The position numbers and the translations under genes are program-made. From positions 868,001 to 932,000 of the forward strand of contig JANSXV010000001.1 of NCBI GenBank assembly GCA_024742735.1: DNA of 64,000 nt, read 5' to 3'. A model generated the notes under the pieces. The model was not told the origin of the DNA and ran no database searches. It saw nothing but the letters and a program-made list of their open reading frames with translations. This DNA comes from Alphaproteobacteria bacterium. Lineage in GTDB: Bacteria > Pseudomonadota > Alphaproteobacteria > Caulobacterales > Maricaulaceae. How positions within the stretch are numbered: the stretch's first letter is position 1; each line of letters starts with the position of its first letter. Below are positions 1,986 through 52,949 of this stretch, piece after piece.

Positions 1986-2195
1986 CGCGCCCCCGCTGTC
2001 TTCAAACCTGAGAGATTCCCGCGCTCCGTCCGGCCGTCAGTCGGCGTGCGCATTGCTCCTTCGGTGGGATCGAAACGGCAAACCGCTCCGTCCGCTTTCC
2101 AGCGTCGGCCTTATCCCTCGCGGTCCTGTCGCCTGAGCGTTTCCGGGGCGGTTGCGCCTTCGGCGCCGGCCTGTTCGCCGGTCTCTCCCGCAAGG
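1986..2195 (-). promoter_or_regulatory. Tandem glycine riboswitch upstream of gcvT
   Basis: Read on the minus strand, the leader holds two glycine-aptamer-like blocks. The first runs from CGGGAGAGACCGG through GCCGAAGGCGCAAC to GAAACGCTCAGGCGACAGGA. The second contains CACCGAAGGAGCAAT, then AATCTCTCAGGTTTGAAGAC and AGCGGGGGCG. These match the known glycine riboswitch pattern (GGAGAGA, CCGAAGGxGCAA, CUCUCAGG, GGACAG), and tandem aptamers before gcvT are classical. It ends about 75 nt before the gcvT start. I infer that glycine binding turns on the operon. The stretch from 2196 to the NYN gene stop at 2277 shows nothing else. Confidence 0.88.
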
Positions 2196-2276
2196 GGGCC
2201 GTCATTTAGTCTCACACCAACGCGTCTCCCGACGCTTTGCTGCGCGGGCGCAAAACTAGCCAAGACGCGAGTCGAG

Positions 2277-44588: not shown

Positions 44589-44646
44589 TCTTCCAGGCCC
44601 GGCCCTCCCCTATGACGTCCTGACCGATTTGGGGGATGACCACCTG

Positions 44647-46053
44647 ATGGCCGAGACAAGCCAAGCCACGCCGCGCAAGCCCTGGCTGCGCATTCCGCAC
44701 ACCCTGGTCCTGATGGTCCTGATGATGGCCGCCGCTCTCATCATGACGTGGATCCTGCCCGCCGGCAGCTTCGAAATGGAGCCCAACGAGGCCGGGCGCA
44801 TGATGGTCGTGCCGGGCACCTATGCCGAAGTCGAGGACGCGCCGACCCTGCCGGTCTGGCATCTGCTGAGCGTGGTGCCGAGGGCCATGGCGTCGGCCTC
44901 GGACGTGATCTTCTTCGTCTTCCTGATCGGCGGCGTTCTGGGGGTGGTGCGCTCGACCGGCGCCATCAACGCGGCGATCGGCGGCATGCTGGATCAGTTC
45001 CGCGACCGTCTGGCGCTGTTCGTGCTCGCCTCCATGTTCATGTTCGGCGTGTTCTCCTCCGCCTTCGGCATGGCGGCGGAGTATCTGGCCTTCGTGGGGA
45101 TGCTGGTCGTGCTGTGCGGCGCGCTGAGGCTGGATTCCATGACCGCCATCGGGATCATGGTGGTCGGCTATGGCGTGGGCTACGGGGTCTCGTTCATGAA
45201 CCCCTTCACCGTCATGGTGGCCCAGGACATCGCCGAGCTGCAGCCCCTGTCCGGCTGGTGGTATCGCCTGGTCATCGCCGTGCCGATCTTCGCCATCGGG
45301 TTTCACCATGTTTACAGCTACGCCCGGAGGGTGAAGGCCGACCCGTCAAAAAGCCTCGTCGCCGGCGTGAAATCTGCTCAGGCCCCGGCGCCGGAGACCT
45401 ATCCGCCCATGACCTGGCCGCGCCGTCTGGTGCTGCTGGCCATGGGCGCGACCATCGTCATTCTGGTGCTCGGCGTGACGCTTCAGGGCTGGTGGCTGAC
45501 CGAGCTGGCCGCCGTGTTCCTCGGCCTCGCCGTCGCGACGATCCTGATCGCCCGGCCGCAGCTGGACGAAGCGGCCGAAAGCTTCATCGAGGGCGCAGCC
45601 CAGCTCACCGCGACCGCGCTGCTGGTCGGCTTCGCGCGCTCCATCTCGCTGATCCTGGAAGATGGCCAGGTGCTGCACACCATCGTGAATTCGCTCGCCG
45701 CGCCGCTGAGCCAGGTCCCGGCGTCCCTGTCGGCGGTAGGCATGTTCCTGCTGCAGTCGCTGCTGAACCTCTTCGTGCCGTCGGGAAGCGGCCAGGCCTT
45801 CGCCACCATGCCGATCATGGCGCCCATCGGCGATCTGGTGGGCGTGAGCCGCCAGGTGGCGGTGCTCGCCTACCAGTTCGGCGACGGCTTCTCGAACATG
45901 ATCGTGCCGACCAATGCGGTTCTCATGGGCATTCTGGGCCTGGCCGGCATCCCATATGATCGCTGGTTCCGCTTCATCCTGCCGCTGATGATCAAGCTGA
46001 CCATCGCCGGCTCGCTGGCGCTGATGATCGCGGTCTGGATCGGCTACAGCTAG
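44647..46053 (+). CDS. YfcC-family (C4-dicarboxylate / basic amino-acid type) carrier
   Basis: About 468 aa with 10-12 membrane helices. IPHTLVLMVLMMAAALIMTWILPAG and FLIGGVLGVVRSTGAI are close to YfcC/ArcD-like permeases, and NLFVPSGSGQAFATMPIMAPIGDLVG is a diagnostic motif. The substrate could be dicarboxylates or arginine/ornithine. The ATG at 44647 follows GGGGGA. It converges on the HhH gene. Confidence 0.8.
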   Translation: MAETSQATPRKPWLRIPHTLVLMVLMMAAALIMTWILPAGSFEMEPNEAGRMMVVPGTYAEVEDAPTLPVWHLLSVVPRAMASASDVIFFVFLIGGVLGVVRSTGAINAAIGGMLDQFRDRLALFVLASMFMFGVFSSAFGMAAEYLAFVGMLVVLCGALRLDSMTAIGIMVVGYGVGYGVSFMNPFTVMVAQDIAELQPLSGWWYRLVIAVPIFAIGFHHVYSYARRVKADPSKSLVAGVKSAQAPAPETYPPMTWPRRLVLLAMGATIVILVLGVTLQGWWLTELAAVFLGLAVATILIARPQLDEAAESFIEGAAQLTATALLVGFARSISLILEDGQVLHTIVNSLAAPLSQVPASLSAVGMFLLQSLLNLFVPSGSGQAFATMPIMAPIGDLVGVSRQVAVLAYQFGDGFSNMIVPTNAVLMGILGLAGIPYDRWFRFILPLMIKLTIAGSLALMIAVWIGYS

Positions 46054-47794: not shown

Positions 47795-49201
47795 CTAATC
47801 GCCGCGAAAGGTGAACGGAGCGGCGCCGCGCACGTGAGGCTCTGGGTCGAGGCTGCGCTGCAAGGGCGGGAAAGCGCGCTCGGCGCAGTCAGTCCGCTCG
47901 CACAGGCGGCAGGACAGACCGACGGGCGTATAGCGCTCTCCGGACTCGTAAATCAGGCGTCCCGCCTCGCTCGCCTCGCACCCCACCGCCACCGCATGCA
48001 TGGCCGCACCGCCCGCCGCCAGCGGGCGGGCCACGGCGCGGGCGACCGACACGAATCGCGACCCGTCCGGCAGTTCGAGGCCCTGAACATGAATGCGCTC
48101 CGGCGCGCGAAAGGCGTCGAACAGCCGCCAGCGCGCGCATCCGCCGCCGGACCGGGCGAAGGCCAGCACCCCGCCGCCGAACCGCTTGGAGATGTTCCCC
48201 GCCTGATCGACCCGGATCATGAAAAAAGCGACGCCCCGCTCGCCGGGACGGTTCAGCGTGGTCAGCCGGTGGCAGACCTGCTCGAAGCTGACATTGAAGC
48301 GCCGGCGCAGGGCGTCGATGTCGTAACGGGTCTTCTCCGCCGCCTCGTAAAACGCGCCATAAGGCATGAGCAGCGCCGCTGCGGCGTAGTTCGCAAGGCT
48401 CGCCCGGTAAAGCGTCGCAGCGTCCGCGCTGAGCCCTGAGGCCCGCGCAGCCTCCGCGTCCAGCGCCGCGCCAAGCTCCAGATTCACGATGGAGGCGGCG
48501 ATGTGGAAGCTGCGCTGGGCCGGCTCCAGCAGGTCGGACAGCAGGAGCTTGCGCGCGTGAAAGTCGAACCGGCGCAGCGCCCCGCCCATGACCTCGTCGT
48601 CATAGGTGCGCACCGCTGCGCCGTGATTGCGGCGCAGATGCTGGCTGAGGGAGGCTTCGAAAGCATCGGCGTCGGGCAAACCGGCGCGGATCTGGTCAGC
48701 CGCTTCCTCAAGCGCGGGAAAATAGTTCTGGGCCGCATCCAGCGCGTCGCGCACTTCTTCGAGCGGCGACAGCGCGGCGCCCCCTGCCCCGCCCTCAGCC
48801 GCGCGCAGAGCGAGATCAGAGGCCGCCGCGCTGGTGTCGCGATAGGCCTGGTAGAGGCGGGCGAAGGCTTCAGCGGCGCGCGGATGGGCGTCGGCGAGGT
48901 CCTGTACGTCGCGGGCGTCAAGATCGACGCCCTTGAGGACGGGATCGCCGGCGGCCGCCTTCAGGTCGGCGACCAGCTGCCGGTCGCTTTCGGCGGCGAA
49001 GGCGCGCACGTCAATGTCGAAGGCCTCCGCCAGCGCCAGCAGGACGCGTGCGGTCACAGGGCGCTGATTGCGCTCAAGCAGGTTGAGATAGCTGGGCGAC
49101 ACCGCCAGGGCGTCGGCGAACTGGGCCTGGGTCTGGCCCAGATCCTTGCGCAGCCTGCGAAGGCGCGCCCCCGCGAAAAGCTTATCCTGTCCAGCCGCCA
49201 T
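47795..49201 (-). CDS. ScfR/RamB-type XRE regulator of acyl-CoA/acetate metabolism
   Basis: A 468-aa regulator. The N-terminal XRE helix-turn-helix ([37 protein letters not shown]) is followed by an ImmA/IrrE-like domain and the DUF2083 C-terminus with [21 protein letters not shown]. Proteins of this type sense short-chain acyl-CoA and control glyoxylate-shunt genes (for example RamB in Corynebacterium). It is divergent from aceA and has a palindrome just before its start codon, so it likely controls both itself and aceA. Confidence 0.88.
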
Positions 49202-49207
49202 GACTAT

Positions 49208-49222
49208 TGTAAATTATTTACA
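49208..49222. promoter_or_regulatory. Perfect 15-bp palindrome between the ScfR-type gene and aceA
   Basis: TGTAAATTATTTACA is a perfect inverted repeat, 6 nt before the regulator's start codon. I infer an operator for autoregulation and for aceA. The 49202-49345 spacer also carries the promoters but no clear second site. Confidence 0.6.
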
Positions 49223-49345
49223 CCACGACAAAACAACAACACTCATTCGTGTACGCCGTTTCCCCTTTCTGTGCAAGGGGCTCTCGACGCGGAGCAGCAA
49301 GCCTGTATCTATGTTCACAACACGCGAACACGAAGGACCTGCGTC

Positions 49346-50641
<1,296 letters not shown>

Positions 50642-50657
50642 GCGCCGGCGACGTGTT

Positions 50658-50816
50658 CGGTCCGCACCGCTGGATGTGCGGACCGTCTGAGGGACGGCGC
50701 GATGCGCACCGCTGGATGTGCGTAAGCGCCCCCTCGCCGAAGTGATCGGGACCGCTGGAAGTCCCGATCCCAAGAGCGCCGGGCCGGACCGCTGGAAGTC
50801 CGTTCCCGGCGCTCTT
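50658..50816 (+). promoter_or_regulatory. Array of four hairpins with a common CGCTGGAW octaloop, between aceA and rraA
   Basis: Four hairpins follow one another: 50658-50685 (10-bp stem), 50696-50730 (7 bp with a wobble, plus an outer 5 bp), 50744-50769 (9 bp, perfect) and 50772-50816 (5 bp inside an outer 12 bp). The stem sequences differ, but each loop is CGCTGGAT or CGCTGGAA, closed by AC/GT. Paired changes in the stems with a fixed loop imply an RNA-level function. The shared core CTGGAWG is one base from the CsrB repeat CAGGAWG bound by CsrA. The last hairpin ends in a short TTT and may terminate or stabilise transcripts. Confidence 0.7.
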
Positions 50817-50841
50817 TACATCCAACACCTGGTATTTCGCC

Positions 50842-51324
50842 ATGATCCCAGTCTGCGACCTTTGCGATGCGCACCCCGACACGGTGCAGGTGTTCGAGCC
50901 GGTTTTTCACAGCTTTGGCGGCCGGGACGCCTTTTTCGGCCAGGCCGAAACCATCCGCACCCATGAAGACAATAGCCGTGTGCGCGAAGCGGTCAGCGAG
51001 CCCGGCGAGGGGCGCGTCCTGGTCGTCGACGGCGGAGGGTCGCTGAAGCGCTCCCTGCTCGGCGGCGATCTGGCGGGCAAGGCGGCGAAGAACGGCTGGG
51101 CCGGCGTGATCGTCCATGGCGCGGTCCGTGACGTGGCGGAGCTTGAAGCTGAAGATATCGGCGTGTTCGCCCTGGCGCTGATCCCCATGAAGACCGAAAA
51201 GCGGGGCCTGGGCGAACGCGGCGTGACGGTTGCGCTGCCAGGCGCGGTCATCCATCCCGGCGACTGGATTTATGCTGACCGCGACGGCGTCGTCGCCGCG
51301 CGCGAGGCTCTGCACGACGTTTGA
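50842..51324 (+). CDS. rraA: RraA-family protein
   Basis: A 160-aa protein of RraA length. The typical GGDLAGKAAKNGWAGVIVHGAVRD and DGGGSLKRSLLG loops are present. In E. coli RraA inhibits RNase E; other family members are aldolases or oxaloacetate decarboxylases. The stop overlaps an ATG of the next frame (TGATG), and the malate synthase start follows within 30 bp, so it is in one operon with it. Confidence 0.92.
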   Translation: MIPVCDLCDAHPDTVQVFEPVFHSFGGRDAFFGQAETIRTHEDNSRVREAVSEPGEGRVLVVDGGGSLKRSLLGGDLAGKAAKNGWAGVIVHGAVRDVAELEAEDIGVFALALIPMKTEKRGLGERGVTVALPGAVIHPGDWIYADRDGVVAAREALHDV

Positions 51325-51350
51325 TGCAAACAGAAGAAGGAGCGCGGCTG

Positions 51351-52949
51351 ATGCGCGATCTGCCCGAAGGCGTTCAAATCCTGGGTCCGATGCGGCCCGG
51401 CTATGAGACCATCCTCACGGCTGAGGCGCTGTCCCTGCTGGCCGACGTGCACCGGCGCTTCAACGCCGAACGCCTACGCCTGCTGGCCGAGCGCGACGCC
51501 CGCCAGAAGCGACTGGATGCCGGCGAGGAGCAGCTGGACTTCCCCGCGCAAACCGCTGCCATCCGCGCAGGCGACTGGACGGTCCCCGAGGCGCCCGCCG
51601 ACCTGCAGGACCGCCGGGTCGAGATTACCGGACCAGTGGACCGCAAAATGGTCATCAACGCCCTGAACTCCGGCGCGAAATGCTTCATGGCCGATTTCGA
51701 GGACGCCTCCACCCCGTCCTGGACCAACATGATCGAAGGCCAGATCAATCTGCGCGACGCCAATGCGCGCACCATCGATTTCACCGATGAGACCTCCGGC
51801 AAGTCCTATGCGCTGAAAGACGATCCTGCTGTGCTGATCGCCCGGGCGCGCGGCCTGCATCTGGATGAGGCCCACGTCCTCATCGATGGCGAACCCATGG
51901 GCGGCGGCTTCTTCGACTTCGTGCTCTACCTGCTTCACAATCACGCCACGACTGCGAAAAACGGTTCGGGTCCGTACTATTACATCCCCAAGCTGGAGAC
52001 CCGATTCGAAGCCCGCCTCTGGTCGCTGGTGATCCGCCATTGCGAAGAGACGCTGGGGCTGAAGCGCGGCACGGTGCGCATCACGGTGCTGATCGAGACG
52101 CTGCCGGCCGCGTTCGAGCTGGACGAGATCCTGTATGAGCTGCGCGAGAACATCACCGCGCTCAACGCCGGGCGCTGGGACTATATCTTCAGCTATATCA
52201 AGCGTCAGAAGACCGACGCCTCGAAGATCCTGCCCGACCGGGCCCAGGTCACCATGACCGCGCCCTTCATGGCCGCCTACGCCGAGCGGGTCATCGCGGT
52301 CTGCCACCGACGCGGCGCCCACGCCATGGGCGGAATGAGCGCCTTCATCCCGGTGAAGAACGACGAAGCGGCGAACAAGGCGGCGGTGGACAAGGTCCTG
52401 GCCGACAAGACCCGCGAAGCCTCCATCGGCCATGACGGCGCCTGGGTCGCGCACCCGGCGCTGGTTCCGGTCGCGCTGGAGGCCTTCGACAAGGTCATGC
52501 CGGGCGCGAATCAGCTCGCCAAAAAGCCCGAGGTGAAGGAAGACCGCGACGCTCTGGTCACGCCCAACGAAGGCACGGTCACGGAAGCGGGCCTCTACGG
52601 CAACGCCGATGTGGCCATCCGCTATATCGCCAGCTGGCTGCAGGGCCGCGGCGCAGCGCCGATCCATAACCTCATGGAGGACGCCGCGACGGCGGAAATC
52701 TCCCGCGCCCAGATGTGGCAGTGGCGGGTCCATGGGGCGACGACCGAGGACGGGAAGGCGATCACGGCGGAGCGCATCACGGCCGTCATCGAGAAGGCCG
52801 CCGCCGACATCAAGGCGGAGGTCGGCCTGAACGCCTGGACCGCCGGGCGCTTTGACGAAGCCCAGGAGATCCTGACGGCCATGGCGCTGTCCGATGAATT
52901 CGAGGAGTTCCTGACGCTCCCCGCCTATACCCGCATCGCTGAACGCTAG
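51351..52949 (+). CDS. aceB: Malate synthase A
   Basis: A 532-aa enzyme joining glyoxylate and acetyl-CoA to malate. MADFEDASTPSWTNMIEGQINL, LPAAFELDEILYELRENITALNAGRWDYIFSYIK and PNEGTVTEAGLYGNADVAIRYIASWLQG are diagnostic of malate synthase A. The ATG at 51351 is preferred because AAGGAG precedes it; an ATG at 51324 overlaps the rraA stop but lacks such a site. A strong terminator follows. Confidence 0.96.
   Translation: MRDLPEGVQILGPMRPGYETILTAEALSLLADVHRRFNAERLRLLAERDARQKRLDAGEEQLDFPAQTAAIRAGDWTVPEAPADLQDRRVEITGPVDRKMVINALNSGAKCFMADFEDASTPSWTNMIEGQINLRDANARTIDFTDETSGKSYALKDDPAVLIARARGLHLDEAHVLIDGEPMGGGFFDFVLYLLHNHATTAKNGSGPYYYIPKLETRFEARLWSLVIRHCEETLGLKRGTVRITVLIETLPAAFELDEILYELRENITALNAGRWDYIFSYIKRQKTDASKILPDRAQVTMTAPFMAAYAERVIAVCHRRGAHAMGGMSAFIPVKNDEAANKAAVDKVLADKTREASIGHDGAWVAHPALVPVALEAFDKVMPGANQLAKKPEVKEDRDALVTPNEGTVTEAGLYGNADVAIRYIASWLQGRGAAPIHNLMEDAATAEISRAQMWQWRVHGATTEDGKAITAERITAVIEKAAADIKAEVGLNAWTAGRFDEAQEILTAMALSDEFEEFLTLPAYTRIAER

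Follow-up and report, generated by a model that had tools for sequence, protein, structure and literature searches.

Tandem hairpins with a conserved octaloop follow the isocitrate lyase gene in a lineage of Maricaulaceae

Sponge RNAs of the CsrB/CsrC and RsmX/Y/Z type carry several stable hairpins with GGA loops in a row, in a copy number that depends on the species, and the CsrA consensus A-N-GGA-N is displayed in a hexaloop. Cuckoo-type (CcsR) RNAs of alphaproteobacteria consist of tandem hairpins with C/U-rich anti-Shine-Dalgarno loops. In REP elements the stems are conserved and the copies are dispersed in the genome, and the iron-responsive element is defined by the loop CAGUGN. In Caulobacter, according to the available text of PMC12559287, the RNA CrfA sequesters SisA-D, with a link to carbon starvation, and pairs with the SisA-D/alphaR8 core UUUCCUCCCU, helped by Hfq.

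Here, an array of hairpins was analyzed that lies in the glyoxylate operon of a Maricaulaceae bacterium (GCA_024742735.1), within a stretch of 64,000 nucleotides referred to as the window (contig JANSXV010000001.1, positions 868,001 to 932,000). Profile matches on the plus strand gave the order aceA, hairpin array, RraA-family gene and aceB:

49346..50641, plus strand: aceA, isocitrate lyase, first gene of the operon, stop codon at 50639-50641
50658..50685, plus strand: hairpin 1, 10-bp stem, loop CGCUGGAU at 50668-50675, -19.0 kcal/mol, z -4.2
50688..50736, plus strand: hairpin 2, 7-bp inner stem and outer GC stem, loop CGCUGGAU at 50710-50717, -29.4 kcal/mol, z -3.1
50744..50769, plus strand: hairpin 3, 9-bp stem, loop CGCUGGAA at 50753-50760, -15.8 kcal/mol, z -3.8
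50772..50816, plus strand: hairpin 4 (terminal), 5-bp inner and 12-bp outer stem, loop CGCUGGAA at 50790-50797, -32.6 kcal/mol, z -5.5
50842..51324, plus strand: RraA-family gene (RraA-like aldolase / RNase E regulator family), from profile matches
51348..52949, plus strand: aceB, malate synthase A, TIGR01344 with 716 bits (cut-off 594.5)

Scanned from 49349, the aceA product exceeded the cut-offs of NCBIfam NF011645 with 733 bits and of TIGR01346 with 553 bits, and the RraA-family gene matched NF006875 (209 bits, cut-off 136) and PF03737 (152 bits). Its match to the enterobacterial model TIGR02998 (RraA_entero) stayed below the cut-off (163 versus 241 bits), so that the RraA name is no proof of RNase E control. 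The start codon of aceB is uncertain; the list of open reading frames begins this gene at 51321. The neighbors are thus those given in a preliminary description of this DNA, namely isocitrate lyase followed by an RraA-family protein and malate synthase A. Judged from the gene order, aceA, rraA and aceB would be co-transcribed together with the array. Between 49200 and 51500, promoters were absent from the scan results, as were terminator-like sites on the plus strand; the minus strand gave two such sites, which corresponds to the rate in shuffled sequences. A gene for an ScfR-type regulator lies divergently upstream of aceA (47795-49201, minus strand). Its product has an IrrE-like domain and, at the C-terminus, a short-chain fatty acyl-CoA domain, and is likely a regulator of the aceA operon, whose expression may therefore track the use of acetate or fatty acids. 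The window further contains a DcuC-family C4-dicarboxylate carrier near the glyoxylate operon (44629-46053, plus strand) and a glycine riboswitch (2111-2200, minus strand, 66.8 bits), with which alone the window reached an Rfam gathering score. Among aceA loci with a genus name, those of Glycocaulis, Oceanicaulis, Alkalicaulis, Marinicauda and Maricaulis are nearest.

As read from the sequence and from single folds, the array (50658-50816) comprises four hairpins in which the octaloop CGCUGGA(U/A) is presented on differing stems. In DNA letters the loops are, in array order, CGCTGGAT, CGCTGGAT, CGCTGGAA and CGCTGGAA, each closed by AC/GT, and hairpins 2 and 4 are compound structures with a short inner stem on top of a long outer GC stem. 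When hairpins 1 to 4 were folded singly, 0, 3, 0 and 0 of 200 shuffled sequences folded equally well; a fold of 201 nt had a z of -4.7, with none of 200 shuffles as stable, and all four octaloops were formed when the spacer of the window was folded whole. The four tandem hairpins of the preliminary description were therefore found again in place, whereas the closure by AC/GU that it regarded as constant applies to the window hairpins and does not extend to relatives, in which the same loop is also closed by GC/GC, AU/AU, UC/GA or CC/GG. Hairpin 4 (17 pairs, -32.6 kcal/mol) has the strong GC stem of an intrinsic terminator, and the U-run of such a terminator was not found behind it in the terminator scan of 49200-51500. 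With one mismatch allowed, the 12-mer ACCGCTGGAWGT had four matches in the window, compared to a mean of 0.54 and a maximum of two in shuffled sequences.

Among the 15 genomes of the genus, aceA was detected in 13 and its 3' flank was readable in 12 (in G091 the locus stops at a contig edge). Seven of these 12 have the array at the same place after aceA, with 1 to 8 hairpins: four each in G000, G097 and G087, eight in G095 and, together with the others, 23 in total. G084, G086 and G096 each possess one canonical hairpin, preceded by one whose loop is the related UGGUGGAC (5312-5345 in L051 and L052; on the reverse strand in L177). This loop has G2, U4, G5, G6 and A7 in common with CGCUGGAN, and the common bases are a possible sign of which loop positions matter. 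Judged by eye from position and outer stem, a counterpart of the terminal hairpin 4 exists in all seven array genomes. In G095 (L058, 5312-5682) a unit of two hairpins occurs three times with a loop-spacing period of 114-115 nt, further hairpins lying between the units; with these repeat units, the array is still growing.

An RraA-family gene follows in all seven array genomes and in none of the five array-less genomes of the genus (G085, G089, G090, G093 and G094), in which aceB comes next. Since these five form one clade together with G091 (support 100/100), they represent one event and not five, and array-less loci followed by rraA are found outside this clade (L048, L049, L053 and L057). 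One of them, L049 of Oceanicaulis sp. HLUCCA04, has a different set of GC-rich inverted repeats in the aceA-rraA spacer. The aceA tree, with its poorly separated deep branches, is compatible with one origin of the array as well as with several.

For covariation analysis 21 of the 23 hairpins were aligned, leaving out the copy of G086, which is nearly identical to that of G096, and the copy of G084. All seven inner pairs covary with double changes. In the inner stems 93.2% of the cells were paired versus 67.1% after shuffling, a proportion that none of 500 shuffles attained, and the covariation score was 0.70 versus 0.20 in shuffles. Four of five covariation measures were matched by none of 500 shuffles and the fifth by one, and controls with slid partners paired 20-42% of the cells. 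Loop positions 1-7 were identical in 146 of 147 cells, position 8 was U in 16, A in three and C in two hairpins, and GGA was present in 20 of 21 loops (AGA in the remaining one), a conservation that is partly by construction because the rows were picked by the loop pattern CGCT[GA]GA[TAC], which leaves the pairing unaffected.

The claim that the loop is selected therefore rests on position-matched hairpins of G000, G097 and G087, in which all four array positions carry the loop. Positions 1-7 of the matched loops were identical in 28 of 28 cells between G000 and G097 as well as between G000 and G087, while 13 of 48 and 14 of 48 letters of the inner stems differed, respectively, and five double compensatory changes were found in either comparison. 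Fourfold sites of aceA, compared for G097 and G087 (G095 was left out because of its different length), agreed at 70% and 62% with G000. If sites were neutral and independent, a loop agreement of 28/28 would have a probability of about 5e-5 (G097) and 2e-6 (G087). One of the six inner pairs fails to form in hairpin 4 of both G000 and G097, as well as in hairpin 3 of G087. Between the terminal hairpin of G084 and those of G086 and G096 there is an A-U to G-C swap, the loop being unchanged. In minimum-energy folds of the whole spacers, octaloops were formed in 4/4 cases in G000 and G087, in 3/4 in G097 and in 7/8 in G095. Template-switch mutation can yield perfect inverted repeats without selection, and as it makes compensated stems, mutation could account for some of the stem covariation; it leaves the loop unexplained. 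The comparison shows that the predicted hairpins form and that selection keeps the loop and not the stem sequence. It bears out the selected RNA structure proposed earlier, together with a selected loop: the stems covary, and in close relatives, where a failure of loop conservation had been named as evidence against the proposal, the loop is kept while the stems change.

It had likewise been foreseen that the hairpins might turn out to be scattered over the genome. In the 3.2-Mb genome the 12-mer has exactly four copies, all of them forward and inside the array, and the reversed 12-mer, used as control, had no match in the whole genome. Elsewhere, single 12-mers are at background level (of 137 family genomes, 63 contain one or more, and the reversed control is about as frequent). 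A covariance model, a step suggested in the preliminary description, was built, and a search of the 15 genus genomes, in which the best 150 of one to three thousand first-look candidates per genome were scored, yielded at least 117 matches at E <=5, of which 23 were the aceA hairpins. Fifty-one of the 94 out-of-array matches were read, including all with E <=0.73 and some weaker ones. By mechanical calling of open reading frames, 49 of the 51 lay in such frames compared to 963 of 1000 random positions from 20 stretches, indicating no more than that they are spread like chance. Of the other two, one (L185) is a weak hairpin with a different loop and one is a match in G096 with E 0.22, which is part of a ~178-nt non-coding element described below. 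No second array was found among the matches read in the genus, and the model detected no further array in 44 sources (the window and 43 loci).

Scans for the tandem pattern revealed no stemmed tandem array outside the genus in 398 genomes of the order, 289 genomes of the class and viral contigs, although single or diverged hairpins would escape these scans, which demand two exact cores. The pattern itself was present in 12 of 398 order genomes, four of them in the genus, and in six of 289 class genomes, of which one is the source genome and three were already in the order scan; the out-of-genus matches (eight in the order, five in the class) have stems of at most 4 bp. A phage or mobile origin was rejected: 72 viral stretches match, but only two of 385 loop motifs have a stem of at least 5 bp, one per locus and never in tandem. 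A 12-bp hairpin with CGCTGGAT in Robiginitomaculum (L075) was discarded since it lies within coding sequence. Taken together, sequence comparison indicates that the element is a real, selected and lineage-restricted RNA.

At cut-off, no Rfam family matched the array, and the best match of the spacer in a permissive scan was Ms_AS-8 (23.1 bits, E 0.01, cut-off 48). Among the titles and abstracts listed in searches of open-access PubMed Central literature, none reports the element. It had been suggested that the array could bind a CsrA-like protein and that csrA should be looked for. This suggestion was not upheld, as PF02599 had no match in the source genome and none in any of the 15 genus genomes; it did match in two of 137 family genomes and in the positive controls E. 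coli, B. subtilis and T. maritima. CsrA is thereby excluded as partner as far as the Pfam model reaches. The array displays GGA repeatedly in loops like a sponge of the CsrB/RsmZ type, and its loop of 8 nt with C-U before GGA departs from the A-N-GGA-N hexaloop. A reading as iron-responsive element, with its link to aconitase, was rejected because the CAGUGN loop is absent from the array. A likeness between the loop and the 3'-terminal part of 16S rRNA in alphaproteobacteria was not borne out, the pattern used having no match in the assembly. As to kissing of loops with each other, CUGG is self-complementary only in part.

A conserved loop, free stems and a variable copy number are what is expected of a loop that is read by a partner, and the loop is probably read by such a candidate. 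As best explanation, held tentatively and with less than even confidence, we propose that the array is an RNA platform in the 3'-UTR of aceA whose octaloop is recognized by a putative trans factor and which protects or punctuates the aceA 3' end. The aceA-rraA spacer would be transcribed within the aceA-rraA-aceB mRNA and would fold into a row of GC-rich hairpins, each showing the octaloop CGCUGGA(U/A/C). The reader of the loop would be a trans-acting factor, most likely a non-CsrA RNA-binding protein, and a copy number of 1 to 8 may tune the amount of bound factor. The main effect would be exerted in cis, in that 3' exonucleases would be blocked and transcription would partly stop at the long terminal hairpin, and aceA would consequently be expressed above rraA and aceB.

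A role at the aceA operon is favored by the finding that no second array was present among the genus matches read. Moreover, a strong fold just after aceA was obtained in 16 of 22 array-less loci (-27 to -50 kcal/mol for the best fold of up to 60 nt), and six Hyphobacterium-like array-less loci with very short spacers gave -18 to -24 kcal/mol, all of these being raw energies without shuffle comparison from a stretch that extends slightly into the next gene. It thus appears that the array arose on an older hairpin, located at the 3' end or between the cistrons, which most array-less relatives have too, and the partner would then act first on the aceA mRNA. Several observations speak against this explanation: hairpin 4 is without a proper U-run, octaloops remained unformed in whole-spacer folds of G097 (one of four) and G095 (one of eight), and up to eight copies exceed what a cis role alone explains.

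The main rival, which we consider possible but rather unlikely, is a CsrB-like sponge acting in trans, in which a stable RNA of ~160 nt, derived from the 3'-UTR while the glyoxylate shunt is on, would titrate a putative non-CsrA RNA-binding protein and so keep it from other RNAs. Identical loops on unrelated stems in 1 to 8 copies between species fit such a sponge, as do the high stability of the hairpins and the divergent ScfR-type gene, through which expression may follow acetate or fatty-acid use. On the other hand, CsrA was not found, and the one canonical aceA loop in three genomes would make a poor sponge. The same three genomes, G084, G086 and G096, carry a separate conserved non-coding element of ~178 nt (L312 in G086, L313 in G096 with 88% and L314 in G084 with 79%; about 1501-1679 each). 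By blastn it was not detected in the remaining 12 genomes of the genus, and its G086 and G096 stretches had no Rfam match at E <=0.1. It contains several hairpins, one with CGCUGGAUG at its tip, unchanged in the three genomes, and several of its other loops are G-rich; its match in G086 was counted as coding by the open reading frame rule. An additional RNA with this tip would suit a trans role, but the folds place CGC wholly or partly in the stem, so that its loop differs from the octaloop, and apart from this RNA no other convincing genus site emerged from the 51 of 94 matches read. The same factor may bind the ~178-nt element as a further ligand, or the likeness may be coincidental.

It is improbable that a base-pairing sRNA with UCCAGCG in its seed is captured by the array as a sponge or decoy. 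The loop is short, exposed and invariant in sequence, and RNA sponges are known from the same order, as the available text of PMC12559287 describes for CrfA and SisA-D in Caulobacter. By eye, however, the SisA-D/alphaR8 core given there is complementary to CGCUGGAU by a few bases only, and the pairing is limited to UUCC:GGAA with the A-type loop. In G086, the complete aceA locus of 9.3 kb (L052) does not contain TCCAGCG; hence there is no complementary operon site common to all array genomes, G084 being outside this comparison. Even less probable are plain intercistronic stabilizers of the aceA mRNA that have no sequence-specific partner and share the loop through tandem duplication and template switching that spares it. 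Array-less relatives also have a strong fold at this place, and the 114-115 nt period over three two-hairpin units in G095 demonstrates that duplication occurs, but a neutral loop should drift, and it was kept in 28/28 cells in two comparisons against 70% and 62% at fourfold sites. It is very improbable that the array is itself a CsrA/RsmA ligand: GGA does lie within hairpin loops, but CsrA was unmatched in all 15 genus genomes, and a C instead of the consensus A stands two bases before GGA. An ordinary dispersed repeat such as REP/BIME, to which tandem inverted repeats within a spacer would conform, can practically be dismissed, as all four 12-mer copies are confined to a sole locus and the stems differ between copies with compensated variation of all seven inner pairs, the opposite of REP.

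A protein that reads the loop would probably be a bacterial RNA-binding protein with sequence specificity that has not been described before, and for its capture the array is a ready bait. Sister species with one, four and eight loops offer a natural dosage series. The glyoxylate shunt would then be tied to post-transcriptional control in bacteria where CsrA was not found. A farther-reaching reading, which we regard as distinctly doubtful, would place the array in a new class of RNAs that display loops, in which a metabolic 3'-UTR presents 1 to 8 octaloops to a putative sequence-specific RNA-binding protein and serves as a Csr-like switch that reports two-carbon metabolism in alphaproteobacteria without detectable CsrA.

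With CsrB/CsrC and RsmX/Y/Z the array shares stable tandem hairpins, exposed GGA loops and a species-variable copy number; it differs in that CsrA was not found, in the octaloop CGCUGGAN as opposed to their ANGGAN and in its position between aceA and rraA. Like the Cuckoo (CcsR) RNAs, which also occur in alphaproteobacteria, it repeats a loop sequence over hairpins in tandem, but the loop CGCUGGAN contrasts with their C/U-rich anti-Shine-Dalgarno loops. Intercistronic stabilizer or REP hairpins of metabolic operons are resembled in that the hairpins lie directly 3' of the first gene of the glyoxylate operon, whereas variable stems, a fixed loop and a single locus set the array apart from REP, with its conserved stems and dispersed copies. 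CrfA belongs to the same order and is a regulator-sequestering RNA tied to carbon starvation; tandem identical octaloops are a feature of the array and are not described for CrfA in the available text of PMC12559287. In predicted folds, the G/A-rich loops of the ~178-nt element resemble this Caulobacter sponge. Among the multi-hairpin RNAs that display a ligand, the array is a lineage-restricted variant.
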